From positions 1-44,590 of the forward strand of contig JAGWYZ010000003.1 of the NCBI GenBank assembly GCA_018969115.1: a DNA stretch of 44,590 nucleotides, written 5' to 3'. Below are positions 3,256 through 22,001 of the stretch, one piece after another (within the stretch, counting starts at the first letter, position 1; every line of letters starts with the position of its first letter). The position numbers and the translations under genes are program-made. The notes beneath the pieces are model-generated. The model searched no databases. It was not told the DNA's origin and saw only the letters and a program-made list of their open reading frames with translations. This stretch comes from Chloroflexota bacterium (GTDB lineage: Bacteria; Chloroflexota; Anaerolineae; J036; Brachytrichaceae).

Positions 3256-6200
3256 TTAAATAATCCCCGGCAAAAACATGGTGCGGGCCACCACATCCCA
3301 CGATGAAGCCTTGGCCAAGGCATAACCGCTGTCGAGCAAGGCTTGCCGCGCCGCGTCGCTACGCGGCAAACGTTCGATGATTTGATTCGCCACTTCCCAA
3401 GCGGCCCGCGCCTCAAGATCATCACGCTGCGATTGTCCAAGCCATCCCGCGCTATTGAGGTCAAGCGTGTAGGGCAACTGTGTGTAGTTGGCGATAATCA
3501 AGTTTTGGTCTGGCACTTTGCCAGATGCAATGATGCCTTTGCAACCGCATACATCGCTAATCACGCATAGCGCCCCAAATGTCAACGGCTCGATTTGGGC
3601 GATGCCGAATGGCTCGTAAATGCTTTGTCCAAATTCGACATCCGAGCCTCTGCGTAAGTCGCTAAACTCAATCCCTTCGGGGATAGCCCCACCCAAACGG
3701 TCGTGGCTAAAACCAAATTGATTGACGAACACAGCGCGTGCTGCGCGGGCGTAGCCATTAAAACTCATTATCGAATGCCAGAGTGGTATTTCTTGATCGA
3801 CCAAATCGGGCATACCGCTGTAATGGTTGCGCGGCCAGCCGTAGGCTTGATGCATCCGTCGGGCATCGTTGGTTGAGCGGCCTTGCGCCAAGTTTGATGA
3901 TACGACTAAAAAGGCGGCAGTTTCACCACGTTGCGCCAATAGATAATCGAGATGACGCATGACGGCGATGTCGCGCCACAAAGCCTTGCTTTGGGCCAAA
4001 CGGGTGACATGGGTAAAGACCCAATTGGGGCGAAAACCGGCCAAGGCATGGGCTGCGTCTTTTAGTTTTTCACTGGCCGCATACCGTTCATCCAAATTAA
4101 AGCGTTGGCTGGGCACGCCGTTATAGGCCAAAGCAATTTCGCGCTGGCCACGTTGGCTGCGGTTTCTAAAACGCCAATCCATAAAACGCAATTCATCGGC
4201 GGTGACATCGCTGACAGCCAAAACGTAATCGCACTGAGCGGCGGTTTGGGTCATGGGGTGTTTAAAGTAACCCGATGAATCACCCAACACCTGCTCCATT
4301 TGCAAGCCGTGCCGCATGGCTTGGCGCATGATGTTGTAAAAGCGCACATCGTGCCCCGAATTGCCCTCAACGGCGGCGCGAACCGAGGCAACCTCGTGCG
4401 CAACGTAGGCGCTGGCAAATTCACCTCTTGCGCTTAATTCGGCGGCATACCACAGCGGCAAGCCCATAAATTCGTGGGCGATGATGACGGGCTTTGAGAT
4501 TAAGGATTGGGGATTAGGGATTGAGGTTTGAGAATTAGACGATTCTATAGAATCCTTCATCCAGAATCTTTCATCCTTAATCCCTAAAATGGCCTGCAAC
4601 GCCAAAAAGCTGGGCACAGCCAGCGCCATATATTCATCAAATTCGGGGTTGTTTTGGTAGCGGTTGCAATCAAGACCAAAACGTTCCCACACACCAAATT
4701 TAAAGTCGTTGAGTTTATAACGCGGTAAATCAGTTGCATCGACTAACAAGACCTCGTGCTCAGCACTGTTATTTGCATCGCCAAATGCACGGCGGGCATA
4801 GCAAATACGCACCTGCCAATCACGCTCAATGGCACTGAGCCGTAGTGCCAATTCAGCCGGACAACTCGACAAGTCACGATCGGCAAAATAGTAAAAATAT
4901 TTTACGCCATTTTTAAGCGAAAAGAAGCGCTCCATTTCGGTGCTGTTGTTGGTGTGCATGGGGCCAACCAACACCGTGCGTTTAACTGATTTGACATAAC
5001 TGGGTGCACTGAGCAAGCCATCTAACACCGCCCCAATCCCACCGATCTTAAGACCAGCCTCATGAGTGCTGTGAATTAAAGTTGAAAATTGGGTGTTAAA
5101 TTCAGAAACCTCATCTTCCGTTCTTAATTTTTCATTTTCAATTTTCAATTTTTCAATATCGTCGCACCCTTTGCCACCTAAATGAGCCGTTAAACGGGCA
5201 TAGCTGCCATCGGTATCTAGCACTTGTTGCCAATCGAGAAAAACATGGCATTTATAGCCGCCCAATTCAGCATACAAACCGCGATCGCGCAATTCGCTAT
5301 TGCTGCGAATAAATTGCTGACCACTCATTTGATCGCGGAAAATGCTAAAGGCGTTGTCTTGAATATTTAGCCGTAGCGCTTCGATGAGCGATTTGCGTTT
5401 GCTGATTTGGGCTTTGCGGCTTTCGAGGGGTGCATCTTCATGGTCAAATTGGGGTTTAATTTCGGTTTCAATCTGCACCCAACCCGTCGCTTGGCTCATG
5501 CGATTGTTATAAAGGATGAGCGCTCGTTCAATGCCCCCACTCCCCTCTCCTTCTGGTATAGGGAAATGGGGGTGAGGGCCGATGGTGCAGTTGGTATAAG
5601 CAAAGACATCTTCATTGAGAGCGGTATCGTTGCCAACAAAGTCGTACAGCACAAAATGATCGACCTCGGCAAACATGGCGCGGCGCTTGAGCAAAGGCGC
5701 AATCACGCGCTCATGATGCTCCATCAATCCAGTATCGACTTGCTCGTCCCACATCGGGCGGCGAAATTCCATGCCATATTTTTCAGAAAAGCCCTCAAAT
5801 TGCCCATGCCCAAACATGGGCAAACCGGGCAAAGTGGCCAGCATGACGCAAATGCCAAAATATTTTTCGCCACGTCCAAATTGCTCTACCGCCGTTTTTT
5901 CGTCGGGGTTATTCATAAAGCTGACATAACGCTTAAGAATTTGTGGGTCGAAGGCCATGGTGTCTTTGATCACGGCGCGATATCCGGCGTTCTTTTCGTC
6001 GCGCAACATGTGCATAAACGAGCTGTTATAAACACGGTGCATGCCCAAGGTGCGCACAAAATAGCCTTCCATCATCCAAAACGCTTCGGCCAAAAGCAGC
6101 GTGTCGGGGGCTTCGGTGGCGCAGCGGTCAACCACATCGCGCCAAAATTCGTTTGGCATCAGCGCGTCAAATTCGGCTTTGCTCATGGCATGGTTTTGGC

Positions 6201-7896
6201 GCGATGGAATTGAGCCGGTGGCCCCCGGCCCGGGAAACCACAAACGCTGAATATGGCGCTTTGCCAAGGTCATGGCCGCATCGAAGCGAATGACCGAAAA
6301 CTGCCGTGCCACATGCAAAATGGTTTGAATGACGGCTTCGCGCACTTCGAGCTTAAGGTAGTTTAATTGAGCAGTGTCATTCCATGGGGTTGAAGTGCCG
6401 TCATTGCCATGATAAACATATTGGGTTTGGTTGGTGGCGTGGTTGTGCAATTTAAAAACGACCGCCGCGTCACTATGGTTCCAATAATGGTCTTCAAGAT
6501 GCACGCTAACGCGGCTATCTGCCGACAAATCTTGGCCCGCAAAGGTGTAGCTGGGGTATGGCACTTGATCAACACTCAAAAACCAATCGGGGTGATCGGC
6601 TACCCAAGCCGAATCGATGCCCATATGATTGGGAACCATGTCGCTGGCGAGGCGAATACCGCGTTGGGCGGCACGGTCACGCAAATTGGCACAAGCCTCT
6701 GGCCCACCCAAATCATCGGCAATGCGATAATCGTGTAGCGAATATGCCGAGGCGACCGCATCGGTATTGCCCATCCATTGTTTAATTGTGCGCGAGGCTT
6801 TGCTGCGCTCCCATAGGCCAATCAGCCACAAGCCAGTAATGCCCCAGCGCTGCAACTGATCTAGTTCCTCATCGGGTATTTGGTCGAGCTGCGTAATATT
6901 GCGTTGATATTTTTTGCTCAATTGGTCGAGCCAAACATACGAATTTTTCGCCATCAACACCATTTGTGGCATCCATGCACGGTCGGGGGTGAATTGCTCT
7001 GGCTCAGCGGCCAGCTCGTCGTTGAATTGGGGGGGCTGGGCCGCCGAAAAACCATGCCCACCAACCGCATAACTGTCAGGTTGAACATTTGGCTGGTTTG
7101 TGGCGGCACTGGCTTGTTCGTTGGCGATCCAACGATTTTCATCATGCAATAAATGAATGACTTTTCGGGCATTGTCAACCAATTGGCTCAGGCGTTGCCG
7201 CCCTGAAAGATTAGGCCAGTGTTGGGCAATATGATCAAGCTGACCGATTAAATCATCGGGCGAGGCATTGAGCGGGGCATTTAATAATTCGAGTAAATTG
7301 TGCTGGGTTGGGCCTGCTTCTAATTTGGGTTGCTCGGCATAAAACGGTTGCAACCCTTTAATCAGTTGTTGGTAATGTGAATTAACCCCTTCGCCATTTA
7401 AAACCGCGTCATCAAACAAGGCCTTTAGCTTAATCGCTGCCTTATTTTGGTTGGTTAACCACACCAACACCAATGCTTCAAGCATATGTTCGCGGTTTGA
7501 AACGCCGTCTGTAACACCATTTAAATAGGTATCGGCGGCATATTCATCACGATAAACAACAGGTGGAGGAAAAGAGCGGACAAAATCGGTGAGTAAGCGC
7601 GCAAATGTGGCTTCGCCCAAACGCGCTCGCAACCATTCGCTCATGTTGGTGTGCAGTTGGGGCGCAATGTCGGTGCGGTAGGCGGCCAATATTTCGCGGG
7701 CGCAATCATCTAATACCGATAAGGCATACATTTGGGCTGGCAAGAGTTGCTCGCTGGGTAAGCGGCCATTGTTAATGCGTTTTGCTAAGGTGTAGGCTTC
7801 GGTAATATCAGTCAGAGGTAAATCGCCAAATTGGCTATAGGCTAGGTCTTCGAGTTGGTTTTGTTCACGAAATTGTCGATTGATATGCAATGCCAT
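3256..7896 (-). CDS. Giant GH13 alpha-amylase-type + GT-B glycosyltransferase fusion (1546 aa)
   Basis: A helical, unassigned N-terminal region (about 1-300) precedes a GH13-type (beta/alpha)8 domain (about 320-760). It carries SDMVPNHMG (418-426), IRFDA with the expected nucleophile Asp539 and Arg537, LLAEAFW with the acid/base Glu604, and FMNNPDE with Asp665 in region IV, where the usual His is Pro. The second half (about 945-1540) is a glycogen-synthase-like GT-B domain: KIGGIGAVLDG (950-960) matches the KxGG loop (family Asp is Ala here), and EFGQSIYEPFGIAQIEPLTFG (1421-1440) has the C-terminal Glu pair (1428, 1436). There is no signal peptide, so it is probably cytoplasmic. A TATACAAT box ends 6 nt before the ATG, suggesting a leaderless mRNA. 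Three in-frame palindromic insertions fall at residues ~772-790, 912-937 and 1102-1133. The domain order resembles fungal alpha-1,3-glucan synthases. The product is unknown. Confidence 0.82.
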   Translation of the reverse strand: MALHINRQFREQNQLEDLAYSQFGDLPLTDITEAYTLAKRINNGRLPSEQLLPAQMYALSVLDDCAREILAAYRTDIAPQLHTNMSEWLRARLGEATFARLLTDFVRSFPPPVVYRDEYAADTYLNGVTDGVSNREHMLEALVLVWLTNQNKAAIKLKALFDDAVLNGEGVNSHYQQLIKGLQPFYAEQPKLEAGPTQHNLLELLNAPLNASPDDLIGQLDHIAQHWPNLSGRQRLSQLVDNARKVIHLLHDENRWIANEQASAATNQPNVQPDSYAVGGHGFSAAQPPQFNDELAAEPEQFTPDRAWMPQMVLMAKNSYVWLDQLSKKYQRNITQLDQIPDEELDQLQRWGITGLWLIGLWERSKASRTIKQWMGNTDAVASAYSLHDYRIADDLGGPEACANLRDRAAQRGIRLASDMVPNHMGIDSAWVADHPDWFLSVDQVPYPSYTFAGQDLSADSRVSVHLEDHYWNHSDAAVVFKLHNHATNQTQYVYHGNDGTSTPWNDTAQLNYLKLEVREAVIQTILHVARQFSVIRFDAAMTLAKRHIQRLWFPGPGATGSIPSRQNHAMSKAEFDALMPNEFWRDVVDRCATEAPDTLLLAEAFWMMEGYFVRTLGMHRVYNSSFMHMLRDEKNAGYRAVIKDTMAFDPQILKRYVSFMNNPDEKTAVEQFGRGEKYFGICVMLATLPGLPMFGHGQFEGFSEKYGMEFRRPMWDEQVDTGLMEHHERVIAPLLKRRAMFAEVDHFVLYDFVGNDTALNEDVFAYTNCTIGPHPHFPIPEGEGSGGIERALILYNNRMSQATGWVQIETEIKPQFDHEDAPLESRKAQISKRKSLIEALRLNIQDNAFSIFRDQMSGQQFIRSNSELRDRGLYAELGGYKCHVFLDWQQVLDTDGSYARLTAHLGGKGCDDIEKLKIENEKLRTEDEVSEFNTQFSTLIHSTHEAGLKIGGIGAVLDGLLSAPSYVKSVKRTVLVGPMHTNNSTEMERFFSLKNGVKYFYYFADRDLSSCPAELALRLSAIERDWQVRICYARRAFGDANNSAEHEVLLVDATDLPRYKLNDFKFGVWERFGLDCNRYQNNPEFDEYMALAVPSFLALQAILGIKDERFWMKDSIESSNSQTSIPNPQSLISKPVIIAHEFMGLPLWYAAELSARGEFASAYVAHEVASVRAAVEGNSGHDVRFYNIMRQAMRHGLQMEQVLGDSSGYFKHPMTQTAAQCDYVLAVSDVTADELRFMDWRFRNRSQRGQREIALAYNGVPSQRFNLDERYAASEKLKDAAHALAGFRPNWVFTHVTRLAQSKALWRDIAVMRHLDYLLAQRGETAAFLVVSSNLAQGRSTNDARRMHQAYGWPRNHYSGMPDLVDQEIPLWHSIMSFNGYARAARAVFVNQFGFSHDRLGGAIPEGIEFSDLRRGSDVEFGQSIYEPFGIAQIEPLTFGALCVISDVCGCKGIIASGKVPDQNLIIANYTQLPYTLDLNSAGWLGQSQRDDLEARAAWEVANQIIERLPRSDAARQALLDSGYALAKASSWDVVARTMFLPGII
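4497..4590. repeat. In-frame palindrome of GGATTAG-like units inside the GH13-GT gene
   Basis: Short units of the form GATTAAG/GATTGGG/GATTAGG on the left are mirrored as complementary TCCTTAATCCCTAA on the right around ATTCTATAGAAT. It translates to a low-complexity insert of about 30 residues (WMKDSIESSNSQTSIPNPQ region) between two conserved-looking GT segments, without breaking the frame. Confidence 0.6.
5083..5160. repeat. In-frame A/T-rich palindrome inside the GH13-GT gene
   Basis: The left arm GAATTAAAGTTGAAAATTG mirrors the right arm with CATTTTCAATTTTCAATTTTT. It encodes a charged linker (DIEKLKIENEKLRTEDEVSE) right before the KIGGIG loop that opens the GT domain, so it sits at the domain junction. 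Confidence 0.55.
5527..5582. repeat. In-frame G/C-rich palindrome inside the GH13-GT gene
   Basis: CCCCCACTCCCCTCTCC on the left mirrors GGGAAATGGGGGTGAGGG on the right around TTCTGGTATA. It encodes the odd segment GPHPHFPIPEGEGSGG at the end of the GH13 domain. C-rich/G-rich palindromes of this type occur as dispersed repeats in many Chloroflexota and cyanobacterial genomes (recollection, not checked). Confidence 0.6.
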
Positions 7897-12829: not shown

Positions 12830-13320
12830 TTTTATTCAAATCATTCGGGTATTCCATCCTGTTTTTTTAAAGCAAATTGCTTTCTTTTTTTTTATTTCTT
12901 TTCGCAATAACAGTAGGGGCTGTGGATATGTGGGTATCTCATTGACACCAGAACATGCACTGTAATATAAATTATATTAACGTATATGTGCAGGTTAAAA
13001 AATAAAACCCAGTTATCCACATGAATATAACATGTGTAAATAAAAATTCACAAATTCTCAAAAAATAGCCCAAATTCACATAGAACACGCTTGTATACAC
13101 ATCGTGTTGATATGTTTATCCACAGTGTTGATATTGTTATGTTAATAATTTATGGAATTTTTCCAGGACTGGGGATAACTTGGGGACGAAAGTCAAAATT
13201 ACAATCGTCTGTATCAAGCTGCGGAGGCCAGCGTTGCAGTGTTTGCCCACTATTTACTGTTGTGCTGAAGGGGATTGTTCCTGGCAAAGCTGTGGATAAC
13301 CATTGTACGATATCCACAAT
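12830..13320. other. AT-rich region with DnaA-box cluster (candidate replication-related site)
   Basis: The 12706-13149 gap is strongly AT-rich (for example TGTAATATAAATTATATTAA near 12961). It holds two exact DnaA boxes TTATCCACA at 13013-13021 and 13116-13124 and a near match on the other strand at 12921-12929 (TGTGGATAT). Just inside the end of the following gene are an exact reversed box at 13291-13299, near matches at 13170-13178 and 13310-13318, and, further in, an exact reversed box at 14297-14305. No dnaA or dnaN is nearby. Confidence 0.5.
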
Positions 13321-15582
13321 GCCATCGTTTTGGTTGAGTAATAAGACTTGATCCCCTGTGTTGCTGAGGTTGATGCTGCCGTTGCTCCAAGCCAAATAGG
13401 GCATGAGATCAGGCACGTCAGGGTCATATTTCCCCATTTCAAACTGGGGTTTTTGACCATAATCTTCAAAAAATGCTAAAGCATTTTGAGCGACTACGAC
13501 TACGCCCCCCGCTGCAATAACACTACCTGTGGGAAACTCAAACATGCCATCGCTGCCGTTTTTACCTACTGTTTCAGCATCACCAATTTTGTAATGGCTT
13601 AAATTAATAGGCGTATTTGTTGGGTTATAAATTTCGATCCATTCATGCCCAGCATCTAACCCAATTGGGTCAATCATTATTTCACTAATTAACAGATGAT
13701 TAGCGGGGGTAATTGGGGTAACATTATGTAAGCTAAGTGGCAAATAAATTGCTTGAGATTGCCAAAAATCACTTATAAACATAGTGCGTAAATAACTATA
13801 AACCTCAGAAGATTTAATTAAAAGTGTCATTTCACGATTTCGTTTTGCACTCACTTCACTGCCATTCCATGACCCTATTTGTGCAAATTTGCGCTCACCG
13901 ATGCGTATTAAAAATAATTTGTTGTGAATTCCATGCCCTGTTGGGTTGCCGCGACCAGCACGTATATCCCAGCCCATCTGACGGGCTAGTGTATTTAAAT
14001 ACAAGGTGGTGCTAATATTGCTACGTGCCCCAGCTCGATCATAATAGCTGTCTAATAACACCCGCACCGATGCGCCACGGGATGCAGCCCCCAGTATTGC
14101 ATTAAGTCTTAGGTTGGGAGTGGCCTGTGGATTACTGTTGACCGCTCCCCAATAAGTTGGCTCATCAAGCTGTTGTACCAAAATTTCATCACCCGCGCCA
14201 GCTTGTTCCATTAGCTTAATGATTCCCCCATCTCTCAGGTTGCTTTCGGGCGATGTGGACAACTCAAGGCTAACGGGTGTTGAAACTTGTAGTGCTTGTG
14301 GATAACGCACAACATAACTAATCCCATTTGCCGGCGGTTTCAACATAAATTGATTGCTTGGCCCACCAAATGGCGTGCAAGTAGCACACCAACGGCTGAT
14401 GTCACGATGATTGGGGCGAAAATCGGCTTCGAAGATATCGCGAGCACGCTTTACCAATGCTGGTGCTTGGGTTATGGCAATAATGCCGCGATGCCCGACC
14501 GTACCATCACTTTTGTCATCGGTCGGGTAGCCATTTTGCCCAAAGTTTTCAGACCCCAATACCAACGTTTTGTTATCAGCAATAATGAATTTGGCATGTA
14601 GTTCTTTATAGCGGTCATGGGCTTTGATGGCATCATCTGAGTGCATAAACCAACACCCACTATTGGGGTTCGATGAGGTACTGATGCGTTGACAAGCATA
14701 ACGGGTTTCATCGGTTAGCCCGCCGCTGGGTGTGCCATCTAATAGTACACGCACTCTGACTCCCGCATCGGCTTTTACACGCAATATTTCGGCTAAATTG
14801 GCATGTTCAAAAGAATAACTTTCAATATCAATATGTTGGGTGGCGCTATTTAAAATGGGGACAAGTGCGTCGTAGCTGGCATCGGGAGCAATTGCAACTT
14901 CCACAGTTCCCATGTCATGCTCAGGTTGCGAAAACCGCTCTAATTGCCAGCCGGGAAATAATATTTTGCGCCCAGTGAGTTGGTTTACTGGGTCACTGAG
15001 CCAGTCTTGGGCTGTATCGCTGTCGCTCAAGGGCAGCTTGCGCGCCAAAATTTGACCATCGGCGGCAACAGATTGTGGGATGACATAAGGTTGTAAGGTC
15101 GGTCCATTCCAGCCAGATTGAGGGACACCATTGCCATATACCAGCGTGTCAATCACTGTGTCATCTTGCAAAAGCCTAATTGATCCACCGCTGTTGGAAA
15201 AAAGTAAATTTGTGCCACTCATCTGGTCATAACTTAAAGCCGGTGGGTCACCAAATTGACGTTGAAAAGCTTCTGGGTCGTTTGCAATCCAAGCGCGTTG
15301 ACCAGCTGGCAGAATGGCACGTGGAAATTTTAGACGATGATTGCTTTGGTCAATTAAGCTCCATGTGCTATCGAGTGTAATGTCATAGTCTGTGGTGTTT
15401 GTTATTTGTACAGCTTCATCATTATTACTTTCATAGCCCCAGTAGTGTAATGCTGAAATAACAACGACAGGTAAATTTAACTTGGTTTTGGCATTAGGCT
15501 GAAACGCAAGGCTAGGGTGAATCGTTAATGAAAACGCACAAAACACTGATATCAGCCACCGCACTGAAAATCCATTTTGCAT
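13150..15582 (-). CDS. Secreted phospholipase D-like protein with two lamin-tail domains
   Basis: An N-terminal signal peptide (about 1-26) is followed by a lamin-tail domain (about 40-150, VVISALHYWGYESNNDEAVQI...), two PLD-type halves (about 225-640), and a second lamin-tail domain (about 650-810, LLISEIMIDPIGLDAGHEWIEIYNPT...). The first half has an intact HxKx4D motif (His329, Lys331, Asp336) followed by GSENFGQN. The second has HNK near GHGIHNKLFLIR, but Arg stands where Asp is expected, followed by IGSWNGSE. PLD enzymes normally use two HKD motifs, so this may be a phosphodiesterase/nuclease with a modified second site. It acts outside the cell. Substrate (nucleic acid or lipid) is unknown. 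Confidence 0.85.
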   Translation of the reverse strand: MQNGFSVRWLISVFCAFSLTIHPSLAFQPNAKTKLNLPVVVISALHYWGYESNNDEAVQITNTTDYDITLDSTWSLIDQSNHRLKFPRAILPAGQRAWIANDPEAFQRQFGDPPALSYDQMSGTNLLFSNSGGSIRLLQDDTVIDTLVYGNGVPQSGWNGPTLQPYVIPQSVAADGQILARKLPLSDSDTAQDWLSDPVNQLTGRKILFPGWQLERFSQPEHDMGTVEVAIAPDASYDALVPILNSATQHIDIESYSFEHANLAEILRVKADAGVRVRVLLDGTPSGGLTDETRYACQRISTSSNPNSGCWFMHSDDAIKAHDRYKELHAKFIIADNKTLVLGSENFGQNGYPTDDKSDGTVGHRGIIAITQAPALVKRARDIFEADFRPNHRDISRWCATCTPFGGPSNQFMLKPPANGISYVVRYPQALQVSTPVSLELSTSPESNLRDGGIIKLMEQAGAGDEILVQQLDEPTYWGAVNSNPQATPNLRLNAILGAASRGASVRVLLDSYYDRAGARSNISTTLYLNTLARQMGWDIRAGRGNPTGHGIHNKLFLIRIGERKFAQIGSWNGSEVSAKRNREMTLLIKSSEVYSYLRTMFISDFWQSQAIYLPLSLHNVTPITPANHLLISEIMIDPIGLDAGHEWIEIYNPTNTPINLSHYKIGDAETVGKNGSDGMFEFPTGSVIAAGGVVVVAQNALAFFEDYGQKPQFEMGKYDPDVPDLMPYLAWSNGSINLSNTGDQVLLLNQNDGIVDIVQWLSTALPGTIPFSTTVNSGQTLQRWPPQLDTDDCNFDFRPQVIPSPGKIP

Positions 15583-17028: not shown

Positions 17029-17874
17029 TCAATAACCCCCATGTGATTTGAGATGGGCTTTTACTGATTCTTCAAGGCTCATTTCTCCACGCATCACAGG
17101 GGCACGATAATTTTCATTCCATCGAAATAAATGAGAGCAGCCCTTCTCAAATTCGTCGAATACGAGTGGAGAAAGTGCGCCGGCTTCATCTAAATAACCA
17201 CTTTCATAAAAATCACGGCGGGTGGCAGCACGATCATATTCAACCCGCACAATCTTAGCCTGCCATTCACTGTTGTGCCAAGTTAGTTGGGCATAGCCAG
17301 CTCTAGTATCGCGGTCAAATGGCATGCCGACCGATCCAACATTTACAACACAGGTGTTATGCAATTTGCGAACAAAGGGTAAATGCGTATGCCCTGAACA
17401 AAATAAACCCGGTAATGGCAAGCCAATTTGTGACATTAATAAAGTTTCGGGTGCATCTACAATCATGCTGTCACGAATATGGCGCATGGAAGCATGAGTG
17501 ATGCGAATTTTGCTGTCATCGGGTGCAGTTTGTGTTAAATGAAAAGGTAGTTTGCCCAATTCGGTTACCGTTTCGCCTAACTGAGCAAATGTCCAATGAG
17601 ACATGCGGTAGATTTCAAATTCAACCCCTTTAATGTCACGTTTTACGGTTAAATGTTCTAAAACATAATCTTCGTGGTTACCTCGCAGCACTTCCCACTT
17701 TTGGGATTGCTGCTTTGTTTTTACAAATTGAAAGCATGGCAATGGCATTGGCCCACGATTAACCACATCACCGGCTACAATAACTTGATCTGCCTGCCAG
17801 CGATCAATATGTTCTGCTACAGCTTCGAGCGCCCTAAAGTTGGAATGGATGTCGGCAATTACAGCTATTTTCAC
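17029..17874 (-). CDS. Calcineurin-like metallophosphoesterase (YfcE/MJ0936 type)
   Basis: A dimetal phosphoesterase with the ordered motifs IADIHSN, GDVVNRGP, GNHED, THASM and GHTHLPF, all metal ligands present, plus the NVGSVG tail motif seen in this subgroup. The substrate is unknown; relatives act on cyclic or aryl phosphodiesters in the cytoplasm. The frame is open to a TTG at 17883, but GTG at 17874 begins directly at the first beta strand (VKIAVIADIHSN) and has a TACAAT box 8 nt upstream. A degenerate parS-like palindrome (17867-17882) overlaps this start. The length (281 aa) is longer than minimal YfcE because of a C-terminal extension. Confidence 0.88.
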   Translation of the reverse strand: MKIAVIADIHSNFRALEAVAEHIDRWQADQVIVAGDVVNRGPMPLPCFQFVKTKQQSQKWEVLRGNHEDYVLEHLTVKRDIKGVEFEIYRMSHWTFAQLGETVTELGKLPFHLTQTAPDDSKIRITHASMRHIRDSMIVDAPETLLMSQIGLPLPGLFCSGHTHLPFVRKLHNTCVVNVGSVGMPFDRDTRAGYAQLTWHNSEWQAKIVRVEYDRAATRRDFYESGYLDEAGALSPLVFDEFEKGCSHLFRWNENYRAPVMRGEMSLEESVKAHLKSHGGY

Positions 17875-17891
17875 GTAAAACAATTGTAACG

Positions 17892-18299
17892 TTAATCTGA
17901 AACCGTAATGCGCTCTTTAATGGCATCGAAAATTACGTCTCCAATTCCACTTACTTCTTTTAGATCTTCAATCTGCCGAAAAACTCCTTTTTGTTGGCGA
18001 TATTGCACAATTCGGTCCGCGGTTACATTTCCAATTCGCGGCAAAGTGGCAATTTTTTCTGCATTGGCCGTATTGATGTTTATTTTGCCAATGCTCACTG
18101 TAGTGCGGGGCGTTGTTGTTAATCTTGGGGGTTGGGTTGGCGGGATTGGTGTTGCCGTATTATTCGGGCGTGGTGTCGCCCGTGCTTCTCGTGAAATACG
18201 AGTTGCTGGCACACTTGGGGTTTCGATAAAGATGTCATCAGGTGTGTTGCCACATGCACACAAAATGATGAGTCCTAATTGTATTGACCTGATACGCAT
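17892..18299 (-). CDS. ComEA-like helix-hairpin-helix lipoprotein
   Basis: A short lipoprotein signal (MRIRSIQLGLIILCAC) with a plausible lipobox LCAC is followed by a Pro/Thr-rich linker (ATPRPNNTATPIPPTQPPRL) and a C-terminal ComEA-type double HhH domain: INTANAEKIATLPRIGNVTADRIVQYRQQKGVF and EDLKEVSGIGDVIFDAIK. ComEA proteins bind DNA on the cell surface during uptake for transformation. Nothing else of a competence system is visible here, so the role is inferred. The start at 18299 is chosen because TATAAT lies 10 nt before it and it gives a proper signal peptide. It is divergent from rmlD. Confidence 0.8.
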   Translation of the reverse strand: MRIRSIQLGLIILCACGNTPDDIFIETPSVPATRISREARATPRPNNTATPIPPTQPPRLTTTPRTTVSIGKININTANAEKIATLPRIGNVTADRIVQYRQQKGVFRQIEDLKEVSGIGDVIFDAIKERITVSD

Positions 18300-18354: not shown

Positions 18355-19266
18355 ATGAAAATTGTATTAATTGGTGCAAATGGGCAATTGGGGAGCGATC
18401 TGCGTGACGCACTTTCGCAACATCAAGTTTGGTCTTCAGCCCGTGTCGCACTTAGCCCCAAACACACATCTGAGAATACAGTACGGATGGATGTAACAGA
18501 CTTGGTCATTGTGCACGAATGTATTCGCCGTATTAGCCCTGACATCATCATTAATACCTCAGCATTTCATCGAGTTGATGATATTGAACGAGATGCCTCA
18601 CAAGCCTTATTGGTAAATGGGCATGTAGCACATCAGATAGCACGATTAAGCCGAGAGCTAAATTGTGCATTTTTGCATGTTAGCACGGATTATGTTTATG
18701 ATGGCCTAAAACACGCGCCATATGTTGAAACAGATTTGCCAAATCCGTTAAGTGCCTATGGCTCTAGCAAACTTGTGGGCGAGCACTTAATTCGCGCGGC
18801 ATGGCATAAACACTTTATTGTGAGAACTTGTGGTTTATATGGTTTTGCTGGGGCGAGTGGCAAAGGTGGCAATTTTGTTAACACGATGTTACGGCTGGCT
18901 CGTGAGAATAAAGCCATTAATGTTGTGGCAGATCAAATCTGTACCCCCACTTTTACCAAAGATTTGGCACAACAAATTGCCCTTTTAATTGAATCAACCC
19001 AGTATGGCCTGTATCATGCTACAAATGATGGCGGTTGCTCGTGGTATGAATTTGCTGGTGAAATTTTTAGGTTGGCTGGTGTTTCACCTCAATTATCACC
19101 CATTACGAGTGCTCAATTTAATGCGCCAGCCACTCGCCCACCTTATTCGGTGCTTGAAAATGCACACCTAAAAACAATCGGTTTGGATCGAATGCGTCAT
19201 TGGCGCGAGGCTTTGGCGGAATATGTGCACCATATTGTTTCACGTGAAACATCAACTACGAGCTAG
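18355..19266 (+). CDS. rfbD: dTDP-4-dehydrorhamnose reductase
   Basis: The last enzyme of dTDP-L-rhamnose synthesis, reducing dTDP-4-dehydrorhamnose with NAD(P)H in the cytoplasm. The 303-residue product shows the cofactor motif GANGQLG (7-13), HVSTDYVYDG (108-117), and the catalytic YxxxK (Tyr135, Lys139 in SAYGSSK). The C-terminal half contains GLYHATNDGGCSWYEFAGEIF and TRPPYSVLEN, typical of RmlD. The frame is open far upstream, but the ATG at 18355 begins the first beta strand. Its last codons contain a perfect parS site (19236-19251), adding residues such as HIVSRETSTTS after the conserved domain. No other dTDP-rhamnose genes are in the window. Confidence 0.9.
   Translation: MKIVLIGANGQLGSDLRDALSQHQVWSSARVALSPKHTSENTVRMDVTDLVIVHECIRRISPDIIINTSAFHRVDDIERDASQALLVNGHVAHQIARLSRELNCAFLHVSTDYVYDGLKHAPYVETDLPNPLSAYGSSKLVGEHLIRAAWHKHFIVRTCGLYGFAGASGKGGNFVNTMLRLARENKAINVVADQICTPTFTKDLAQQIALLIESTQYGLYHATNDGGCSWYEFAGEIFRLAGVSPQLSPITSAQFNAPATRPPYSVLENAHLKTIGLDRMRHWREALAEYVHHIVSRETSTTS
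19236..19251. promoter_or_regulatory. parS: parS site (ParB/Spo0J binding), copy 1
   Basis: Exact match to the canonical 16-bp palindrome TGTTTCACGTGAAACA, which is bound by ParB in most bacteria for chromosome partition. It lies inside the 3' end of the rmlD coding region. Confidence 0.9.
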
Positions 19267-19310
19267 CGGCTCGTCAGTGGTACGTTGCGATTGTTTTGTA
19301 CCAGCAAAAT

Positions 19311-19347
19311 AAAACGGCCATAAGTATAATCAACTATGGCTGTTTTT
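19311..19347. terminator. Bidirectional intrinsic terminator between rmlD and tRNA-Arg
   Basis: Stem AAAACGGCCATA (19311-19322) with TATGGCTGTTTT (19335-19346), one G-U pair. T-rich flanks on both sides end the rightward rmlD transcript and the leftward tRNA transcript. Confidence 0.85.
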
Positions 19348-19348
19348 A

Positions 19349-19422
19349 CGCGCCCAGCAGGATTTGAACCCACAACCCCTTGATCCGAAGTCAAGTGCTC
19401 TGTCCAGTTGAGCTATGGGCGC
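19349..19422 (-). tRNA. tRNA-Arg (anticodon UCG)
   Basis: A cloverleaf can be drawn on the minus strand. The 7-bp acceptor stem is GCGCCCA with TGGGCGC and discriminator G; the D-arm is GCTC...GAGC; the anticodon stem CTTGA/TCAAG carries loop CTTCGGA (anticodon TCG, reading CGA); the T-arm GTGGG/CCTGC carries loop TTCAAAT. It is 74 nt long. CCA is not encoded, and a terminator follows. Confidence 0.95.
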
Positions 19423-19528
19423 ATAGTTGAAAATTATAGCATGTCCATTACTGCCGAAAATCAAAAAAAGAAAATTTTTGTATCGATAGAGATCTGAGAT
19501 CAATAAACGATTGCTGTATCATTTGTAT

Positions 19529-20902
19529 ATGGAATTCCAATCATTTGATGCCTATTTAATCGAACATCGTGAACGTTTGTTAGAAGACTATAAAGATTTT
19601 TTGCGGCAACCTAGTGTTGCGGCAACCGGGCAGGGGATCGTAGATATGGCGGCATTGGTTGCTCGCCGTTTGAGTGGCATTGGCTTTAGTGTAAAAGTAG
19701 TGCCCACAGAAGGCGATGCGCCGCCCGTGGTGTGGGCAGAACTGGGCGAAGGCGACAAGGAATTATTGATTTACAACCACTATGATGTGCAACCAGCCGA
19801 GCCTCTTGAGTTGTGGGAATCACCGCCCTTTGAGCCAACCATACGCAATGGCAAAATTTATGCACGTGGTGCGTCTGATGACAAAGGCGAATTAGTGACA
19901 CGTATTCATGCCATCGAAGCTTGGCTAAAAACCCAAGGGCCACTGCCATTCAAAATTAAATGGTTGATCGAAGGCGAAGAAGAAATTAGTAGCCCACATT
20001 TGCATGGGTGGGTTGAAAAACATATTGATTGGCTCAAAAAACCGGATGGTCGCCCGATGGATGGCTGTATTTGGGAGTTTGGTGGTTTTGATGATAAAGG
20101 GCGTTTTACTTTAACGATGGGTGTTAAGGGGATTTGTTACCTCGAATTACACGCAAAGGCTGTTTCCCATGATTTGCATTCATCGTTAGCCGCGTTAGCA
20201 CCGAATGCGGCTTGGCGTTTGACATGGGCATTAAGTACCATTAAGAATAGCGATGAACGAATTCTGATTGATGGTTATTATGACCATGTAAGACAGCCGA
20301 CCGAAGATGAGTTAGATGTGTTATTTGCGATGCCATTTGAAGAGCAGGTGATGAAAGAGAAATGGCAAATTTTAGATTTTGTTACTGGTGTCACGGGTTT
20401 TGACGCAGTCAGACGTCTATATTTTCAACCGACTGCCACTATTTGTGGGCTTACTAGTGGTTGGGAGGGTGTTGGGGCAAAAACCGTGTTACCTGCAAAA
20501 GCGATGGCTAAAATTGATTTTCGACTTGTGCCCAATCTGACCCCTGAAATTGTGGTCGATTTGTTACGCAAACATCTGGATAAACACGGGTTTAATGATA
20601 TTGAAATTAAACTGTTGGGCGGATATCGGGCTGAAATTAGCGATGTAAATGCCCCAATTGTGAGTGCATGTGCCCGCGCTAGTGAAATTGTGCACAAACA
20701 AACACCTGTAAAACAATTATTGAGTGCCGGCAGTGGACCGATGTGGTCATTGTCATCGTTTATTGGTGGCGTGCCAGTCGTTTGCGCTGGTATCGGGCAT
20801 CCTAATGCGCTTGTGCATTCGCCAAACGAGAATGCCATTATTAAGAACTATGAAGAAGGCATGCGTTACTTTGGCGTATTTATAGATGAATTTACAAAAT
20901 AA
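19529..20902 (+). CDS. M20-family peptidase (dipeptidase/deacylase)
   Basis: A zinc-dependent exopeptidase or deacylase of the M20/ArgE-DapE-CPG2 group. Metal-site segments are visible in order: LLIYNHYDVQPAEP (His and Asp), YARGASDDKGE (bridging Asp), and IEGEEEISS (catalytic and metal Glu), with a C-terminal His in GIGHPNALVHSPNE. The dimerisation (lid) domain lies in between, starting near TLTMGVKGICYLELHAKAVSHDLHS. The length of 457 aa fits the family. ATG at 19529 is preferred, with a TATCAT box 6 nt before it. It is likely a cytoplasmic dipeptidase, but specificity is open. A terminator follows 10 nt after the stop. Confidence 0.9.
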   Translation: MEFQSFDAYLIEHRERLLEDYKDFLRQPSVAATGQGIVDMAALVARRLSGIGFSVKVVPTEGDAPPVVWAELGEGDKELLIYNHYDVQPAEPLELWESPPFEPTIRNGKIYARGASDDKGELVTRIHAIEAWLKTQGPLPFKIKWLIEGEEEISSPHLHGWVEKHIDWLKKPDGRPMDGCIWEFGGFDDKGRFTLTMGVKGICYLELHAKAVSHDLHSSLAALAPNAAWRLTWALSTIKNSDERILIDGYYDHVRQPTEDELDVLFAMPFEEQVMKEKWQILDFVTGVTGFDAVRRLYFQPTATICGLTSGWEGVGAKTVLPAKAMAKIDFRLVPNLTPEIVVDLLRKHLDKHGFNDIEIKLLGGYRAEISDVNAPIVSACARASEIVHKQTPVKQLLSAGSGPMWSLSSFIGGVPVVCAGIGHPNALVHSPNENAIIKNYEEGMRYFGVFIDEFTK

Positions 20903-20912
20903 AGTGATATTA

Positions 20913-20945
20913 AGAAATCGGGTTTCTGTAAGAAACCCGATTTCT
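20913..20945. terminator. Hairpin between convergent peptidase and permease genes
   Basis: A perfect 15-bp stem AGAAATCGGGTTTCT (20913-20927) with its complement (20931-20945), loop GTA, starting 10 nt after the peptidase stop. The U-tract is weak. It carries an outer GAAATC/GATTTC as in other hairpins of the window. Confidence 0.75.
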
Positions 20946-20959
20946 AACACAAGTGACAA

Positions 20960-20975
20960 TGTTTCACGTGAAACA
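20960..20975. promoter_or_regulatory. parS: parS site (ParB/Spo0J binding), copy 2
   Basis: Exact TGTTTCACGTGAAACA, extended by one matching base pair on each side. It abuts the stop codon of the permease gene in the convergent intergenic region. With copy 1 it brackets tRNA-Arg and the M20 peptidase, about 1.7 kb apart. Confidence 0.92.
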
Positions 20976-22001
20976 TTATGAAAATCGATTTTTTCGCAAA
21001 ATCACCCAAATAATGAGTGGTGCGCCAATTAATGATGTAACTGCATTTAGCGGCAAAACAATCGAAATACCTGGAAGTTGGGTTAAAAGGTCAAAAACAA
21101 GTGCGAGCAATGCCCCTAAGATTGCGACTGCTGGAATTAATCGGCGATGGTCTGATGTATTAAGTAATGCACGAGCGAAATGAGGAACAGCCACCCCCAG
21201 AAAACCAATTGGCCCACAAAACGCAGTGATAGACCCGGCCAATAAACTTGCACTGGCGATAATCCACCAACGGGCTTTGCGCACATTAACTCCCATACTG
21301 CTCGCATAATTTTCACCCAGCAAGAGTGCATTTAACGGTTTTGCACAAAAAAATGACACAATTAGCCCTAAACAGACAGCAGCCGTTAATGTTGTCAGGT
21401 TATCCCATGTTACACCACCAAAACTGCCGAGTAACCAACCACTAAATGCTTGCACTTGCTCTGGCACGCTCATGTATATCATCAAGCTGACTAAGGCGCT
21501 GACTGCATAACCCATCATGAGGCCAATGATGAGTAAGGCAACCATATTTCGTAAATTGCGTGAAGCGAGCATGACTAGCATAAAAACGAAAGCTGAGCCA
21601 AGGCTGGCAGCCAAAATAAGCCCGACACCCCCAATCACGTCTAGCCTCGGCAGTAGTGCTTTACCTGCTACGCCTGTCCCCAATATCAAGATTGCTACTC
21701 CCAATGTTGCGCCTGAACTGATGCCTAGCACATATGGATCTGCCAAAGGATTGCGGAAAATAGTTTGCATATTTAGCCCACTAACGGCTAAACTGGCCCC
21801 TGCTAAGACTGCTGTAATCGCCTTGGGCAAGCGCAATGTCAAAATAATTGTAGACCATGTGTCGATATCGGCCTCGCCGCCTAAAAAAACGCGAAACACA
21901 TTATTAAGCGGAATACTCACTGGCCCGACAGACACAGACAAAAAAAACGCTGCAATTGTTGCAGCGAATAAAAACAATAACCATAAATGACGCTTTAACA
22001 C
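20976..22001 (-). CDS. FecCD/BtuC-family ABC transporter permease
   Basis: A 341-residue permease with about ten membrane helices, of the family importing iron-siderophores, heme or vitamin B12. Typical segments are LRLPKAITAVLAGASLAVSG near the N-terminus (LRLPR motif), QTIFRNPLADPYVLGISSGA, WLLGSFGG, and the C-terminal FCGPIGFLGVAVPHFAR with the EAA-like loop that contacts the ATPase. It begins 3 nt after cobQ, so cobalamin or a cobinamide-type corrinoid is the likely substrate. The ATPase and binding protein are not in the window. No cobalamin riboswitch was seen upstream. Confidence 0.9.
   Translation of the reverse strand: MLKRHLWLLFLFAATIAAFFLSVSVGPVSIPLNNVFRVFLGGEADIDTWSTIILTLRLPKAITAVLAGASLAVSGLNMQTIFRNPLADPYVLGISSGATLGVAILILGTGVAGKALLPRLDVIGGVGLILAASLGSAFVFMLVMLASRNLRNMVALLIIGLMMGYAVSALVSLMIYMSVPEQVQAFSGWLLGSFGGVTWDNLTTLTAAVCLGLIVSFFCAKPLNALLLGENYASSMGVNVRKARWWIIASASLLAGSITAFCGPIGFLGVAVPHFARALLNTSDHRRLIPAVAILGALLALVFDLLTQLPGISIVLPLNAVTSLIGAPLIIWVILRKNRFS

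Follow-up and report, generated by a model that had tools for sequence, protein, structure and literature searches.

The window analysed here is a stretch of 44,590 nucleotides from the genome of a Thermoflexales relative (Anaerolineae, Chloroflexota) near the Candidatus Roseilinea type, represented by the assembly G000 (4,613,850 bp in 472 contigs, 94% complete). At the locus of interest, an rmlD-like gene, a tRNA-Arg(TCG) gene, an M20 family peptidase gene and a gene for a FecCD-type permease follow one another, and two copies of a 16-bp palindrome enclose both the tRNA gene and the M20 gene (Table 1). For rmlD, the ATG at 18355 was taken as the start; the open reading frame as listed, beginning at 17908, is over-extended. 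The M20 protein shares 99% identity with its counterpart on the MAG contig L016.

Table 1. Features at the parS locus and elsewhere in the window (positions refer to the whole stretch).
Feature	Position	Strand	Remarks
parS site 1, exact TGTTTCACGTGAAACA	19236..19251	.	within the last codons of rmlD; 16/16 at the same place in G001 and G003
parS site 2, exact	20960..20975	.	M20-FecCD intergenic, abutting the FecCD stop codon; exact site between the same genes in G001 and G003
tRNA-Arg (TCG)	19348..19423	-	3′ end toward parS site 1, 96 bp off
rmlD-like dTDP-4-dehydrorhamnose reductase gene	18355..19266	+	Pfam PF04321; carries parS site 1
M20 family peptidase	19511..20902	+	Pfam PF01546/PF07687; between the two parS sites
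FecCD-type permease	20976..22001	-	Pfam PF01032; adjoins parS site 2
3-mismatch parS-like sequence	17867..17882	.	judged chance rather than functional; 6 mismatches in G001
810-aa protein with two PLD-like nuclease/phospholipase and lamin-tail domains	13150..15582	-	PF13091 + PF00932; unusual-looking pairing near the parS locus
1546-aa protein with alpha-amylase domain	3256..7896	-	weak C-terminal glycosyltransferase match

The palindrome TGTTTCACGTGAAACA matches the parS consensus exactly, and a scan of the window found both perfect copies where the sequence-only reading had placed them. That reading had also described one copy as lying in coding sequence at the end of rmlD and the other as touching the stop codon of the permease. 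Both descriptions are correct: site 1 encodes VSRET shortly before the rmlD stop codon, while the stop codon of the permease (20976-20978, minus strand) is immediately next to site 2. Over the whole assembly, the exact 16-mer is expected 0.0014 times from base composition and 0.0023 times from a first-order Markov model, and the chance of a second copy at most 1.7 kb away is 1e-6. The assertion that such a palindrome occurring twice in 1.7 kb is far beyond chance is therefore borne out, with two copies present against about 0.002 expected genome-wide. When up to 3 mismatches were allowed, the window contained four matches compared with 0.34 ± 0.59 in shuffled sequences. A map of all parS copies in the full genome, proposed in the same reading, revealed these two sites only, 1.7 kb apart, at up to 2 mismatches in 4.61 Mb, and none of the 472 contigs of this 94% complete assembly carried a further site at that threshold.

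The third, degenerate parS site claimed by the sequence-only reading fared differently. The 13/16 match at 17867-17882 is indeed present (ATTTTCACGTAAAACA), but it behaves like a chance match, since the corresponding sequence in the congener G001 (AGTTTCACGTCGGGCA) has 6 mismatches while the exact sites are kept there, and only the near-identical G003 has it unchanged. A further match with 3 mismatches at 18183, absent from the earlier reading, was likewise not accepted as parS because of its weakness. Near yabE in the own genus, a possible relic site (TGTTTTACGTCAAATA, L286:2543; also in G003) was taken as chance as well, because it has 3 mismatches, is common to two near-identical genomes only and lies in coding-looking sequence.

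Within the genus of the window, both exact sites are conserved 16/16 in G000, G001 and G003, with site 1 at the same rmlD codons and site 2 between the same two genes. The non-coding flanks of the sites in G001 can hardly be aligned, yet both sites are intact, site 2 being situated just past the M20 stop codon. This conservation, combined with the counts given above, rules out chance palindromes, a reading to which we assign practically no probability. In G002, a congener at greater distance, rmlD contains an exact parS at about codon 96, where it likewise encodes VSRET, and a site with 1 mismatch is found 79 bp from the tRNA-Arg, on the other side of the tRNA. Since these positions differ from those in G000, G001 and G003, the placement of parS has turned over inside the same gene neighbourhood.

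The fact that both sites flank genes, and that one of them is intergenic, would also suit a local regulator of transcription that binds them to control rmlD, M20 or FecCD, instead of a centromere. However, the inside of the rmlD 3′ end (site 1) and the edge of a stop codon (site 2) are poor places for an operator, and the palindromes agree with the parS consensus at every position. Moreover, elsewhere in the family the gene set at the locus is another one (yabE, ksgA, sugar epimerase), with the tRNA alone constant. Combined, these points make a regulatory role of the palindromes very improbable.

The own genome encodes a single ParB_N protein (112 bits) of 315 aa; its gene is on contig C121 and immediately follows that of a ParA-like ATPase of 271 aa. 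The protein reaches 188 bits with TIGR00180 (cut-off 58), and its best PDB matches are Spo0J/ParB proteins. Its top bit score came from the NCBIfam model for Noc, a ParB paralogue family involved in nucleoid occlusion at NBS sites, but this score (233.7) remains under the curated cut-off of 315. The motifs GERRWRA and ENIQR are retained in the ParB, and the alignment shows counterparts of R173 and G201 in it as well. These two residues are present in all extant parS-binding ParBs, whereas Noc has Q173 and R201 at the equivalent positions (Jalal et al., PMC7383237). A cognate ParB with parS-type specificity residues and CTP motifs is thus encoded together with a ParA in the same genome, and a Noc/NBS assignment is contradicted by the site, which is parS and not NBS, by the retained R and G, and by the Noc score below the cut-off. 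The parAB genes and dnaA are located on contigs other than that of the parS pair, and no canonical parS was found beside parB in any of 28 family genomes, with flanks of mostly ~1.5 kb inspected on each side. For the SMC condensin, the best match in the 94% complete own assembly, despite its ParABS genes, reached 31 bits, far short of the SMC_prok_B cut-off of 567, whereas 10 of 14 control genomes exceeded that cut-off in the same search. This absence could reflect an assembly gap or a real loss.

Using ARAGORN, a parS-like site was found 5-97 bp from a tRNA-Arg(TCG) in 27 of the 28 family genomes, that is, in every genome with a readable locus (G018 alone could not be resolved), and in all eight genera. 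The 3′ end of the tRNA points toward the parS-like site throughout, with the G002 near site as the sole exception. The site is a canonical or near-canonical parS in seven genera, and in genus g7 a split element takes this position. Sites with no more than 2 mismatches occur in 20 of the 28 genomes, a count that includes some isolated 2-mismatch matches at chance level, as a backwards control yields similar numbers. The real parS sites form one locus per genome, organised as a tight pair (40-72 bp), a wide pair (1.6-1.9 kb) or a single site. The identification of the palindromes as parS is therefore well supported, as they are unique in the genome, accompanied by canonical ParA and ParB, and conserved in relatives.

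In most of the other genera, yabE (DUF348/3D) and ksgA lie a short way downstream of the locus, and an inositol monophosphatase gene, often together with RidA, is found nearby; the names ksgA, inositol monophosphatase and RidA are our own presumptive assignments from reading the sequences. In the genus of the window (G000-G003), yabE is found on other contigs and its examined flanks contain neither parS nor tRNA-Arg. The tRNA-parS module has consequently become separated from yabE in this genus, where it is flanked by rmlD and an M20 peptidase gene. In genus g5 (G012), both yabE and parS are found at the end of a contig, and the two may still be neighbours. In the g6 genomes G014 and G015, 12-28 kb separate the M20 gene from the parS locus. 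Across the class, the exact 16-mer occurs in 78 of 200 Anaerolineae genomes, usually in 1-2 copies, and the reversed control in one. Outside the family, the tRNA-Arg sequence of the family is present in almost no other Anaerolineae genome, G051 has no tRNA within ~10 kb of parS, and ksgA was not seen adjacent to parS in the compared genomes. Because neither linkage was observed beyond the family, the association of parS with tRNA-Arg and with ksgA looks like a family trait in both cases, and we did not retain it as a wider one.

The sequence-only reading had further proposed that the locus is close to the replication origin. GC3 skew was calculated as third-codon GC skew corrected for gene orientation, and change points were compared with 200 permutations. 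On contig C6 of G011, the sign changes at 44.2 kb (0/200 permutations), 4 kb from the parS pair (40.4 kb); the position of dnaA is 26-28 kb, 13 kb from parS. In G002, the sign change occurs at 37.2 kb of contig C20 (0/200 permutations), about 41 kb from parS at 77.8 kb; the dnaA contig of this genome (C19) has no sign change, and parS and dnaA, on separate contigs, are at least ~118 kb apart. The complete genome G051 carries parS at 475.6 and 476.3 kb, inside a broad, noisy region of negative-to-positive skew, with dnaA at 3.07 Mb, ~1.8 Mb from parS and over 1 Mb from the skew switch. In G021, assembled as a single contig, the skew turns at 2.8-3.5 Mb; the split element next to yabE lies at ~2.99 Mb, and dnaA is at 4.02 Mb, roughly 0.5-1.2 Mb from the switch. 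In G151, G161 and G169, dnaA lies 6-19 kb from parS. Since dnaA is far from the skew switch in G021 and G051 and its contig in G002 lacks a sign change, dnaA is an unsafe origin marker in Anaerolineae. From the positions of skew, dnaA and parS in the relatives examined, it follows that parS is a better guide to the origin region there than dnaA, and parS together with tRNA-Arg gives a marker for following the replication origin in these relatives.

In the window itself, GC3 skew is positive overall (0.12, 95% interval 0.06-0.17) and weakest at the left end for plus-strand genes. It shows no sign reversal, and the best change point is not significant (p = 0.105), which argues against an origin inside the window; dnaA is absent as well and sits on another contig of the own genome. 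Origin proximity is thus supported through the relatives, with skew switches 4 kb (G011) and ~41 kb (G002) away, but not by the window's own skew or gene content. Because both a skew reversal and dnaA are missing from the window, the origin is probably located near the parS pair but outside this stretch. By analogy with G002, we infer that it lies tens of kb away, past the left end of the window.

Alternatively, the parS sites could be real and the locus moved away from the origin by a rearrangement in the genus of the window. Such a relocation would agree with the uncoupling of the parS-tRNA module from yabE in G000-G003, with the missing skew reversal, and with the placement of dnaA on another contig, as in G002 with its distant dnaA. 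On the other hand, it is the congener G002 in which the GC3 skew changes sign 41 kb from parS and not on the dnaA contig, and G021 and G051 demonstrate that the position of dnaA is undependable in this class. We therefore regard a relocated locus as rather unlikely.

Based on the sequence comparisons, we consider it highly probable that the palindromes are chromosomal parS sites at a parS-tRNA-Arg(TCG) locus typical of the family, here split from yabE-ksgA, with the origin probably within tens of kb, outside the window, and the pair very probably serves as a functional chromosomal centromere. Chromosomal parS sites are expected to be few and to lie close together in the fifth of the chromosome nearest the origin; the clustering is seen here, and nearness to the origin is indicated by the relatives G011 and G002. 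One parS can be sufficient, which makes two adequate. In known systems, ParB nucleates on parS and spreads, while ParA moves the resulting complex and thereby separates newly replicated origins (PMC7022226, PMC7333895). At each of the two sites, the ParB encoded next to parA on contig C121 would likewise be loaded in the form of a CTP-dependent clamp, and from there it would spread across a few kb of DNA that include the tRNA-Arg and the M20 gene. Early after replication, ParA would draw the sister complexes away from each other. Recruitment or loading of SMC downstream of ParB, the second customary role of such systems, is uncertain and may not apply here, owing to the lack of an own-genome match near the SMC_prok_B cut-off.

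Compared with the chromosomal ParABS systems of Bacillus, Caulobacter and Thermus, the locus shares the exact 16-bp consensus, a canonical ParB with CTP and specificity motifs, an adjacent ParA, and few, clustered sites, and is very probably an ordinary chromosomal centromere. In contrast to these systems, parS is apart from parAB and dnaA on the contigs at hand, there are two sites only, one of them in coding sequence, and the linkage to tRNA-Arg(TCG) extends throughout the family. What this analysis adds is the tRNA-Arg linkage of the family, the uncoupling from yabE in the genus of the window and the split element in genus g7. Among the listed open-access titles and abstracts on parS in Chloroflexi/Thermoflexales or in connection with tRNA-Arg, none reports these three features, and, at that level, the conserved tRNA linkage and the split parS-like element of the sister genus seem to be undescribed. 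A centromere can thereby be placed in a largely uncultured bacterial order, and the same locus in eight genera offers a natural experiment in which the centromere holds its position while the neighbouring genes reshuffle.

In genus g7 (G016, G017, G019-G024), no canonical parS was found at the locus upstream of yabE by the tRNA-Arg. The same place is occupied by a conserved 29-bp element, TGTTTCACGGAGAAATTTTACATGAAACA (L265, L266, L268, L272, L273, L277, L278 and L281), which consists of two inverted GTTTCA half-sites situated 13 bp further apart than in parS. At the position corresponding to A177 of Caulobacter, within the recognition helix, the g7 ParBs have in common a tyrosine, which occurs in no other genus of the family. 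ParB is known to bind half-parS sequences (GTTTCAC) in Pseudomonas aeruginosa and others (PMC7022226). The g7 element is also composed of half-sites, two GTTTCA copies in inverted orientation, but it is one conserved element that seems to stand in for canonical parS at this locus, and not a set of hundreds of scattered half-sites. The g7 locus may thus provide a natural experiment in possible parS/ParB co-evolution.

More speculatively, the tRNA-Arg could be functionally tied to the Thermoflexales centromere, either because a highly transcribed tRNA gene acts as a roadblock limiting the spreading of the ParB clamp on one side, or because it holds the locus in place during changes in gene order; in g7, the canonical parS would have been replaced by the split element, read by a ParB with the lineage-specific tyrosine in its recognition helix. 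We regard this combined proposal as distinctly unlikely.

Other variants of the site were also encountered. In genus g3 (L181:8760, L279:246), there is a related form of 30 bp whose right half is near-canonical. In genus g5, beside the tRNA-Arg of G012 (C21:43398 and 43777), we observed the variant TGTTTCACGTGCAACA and the perfect palindrome TGTTGCACGTGCAACA, suggesting another shift in the parS sequence.
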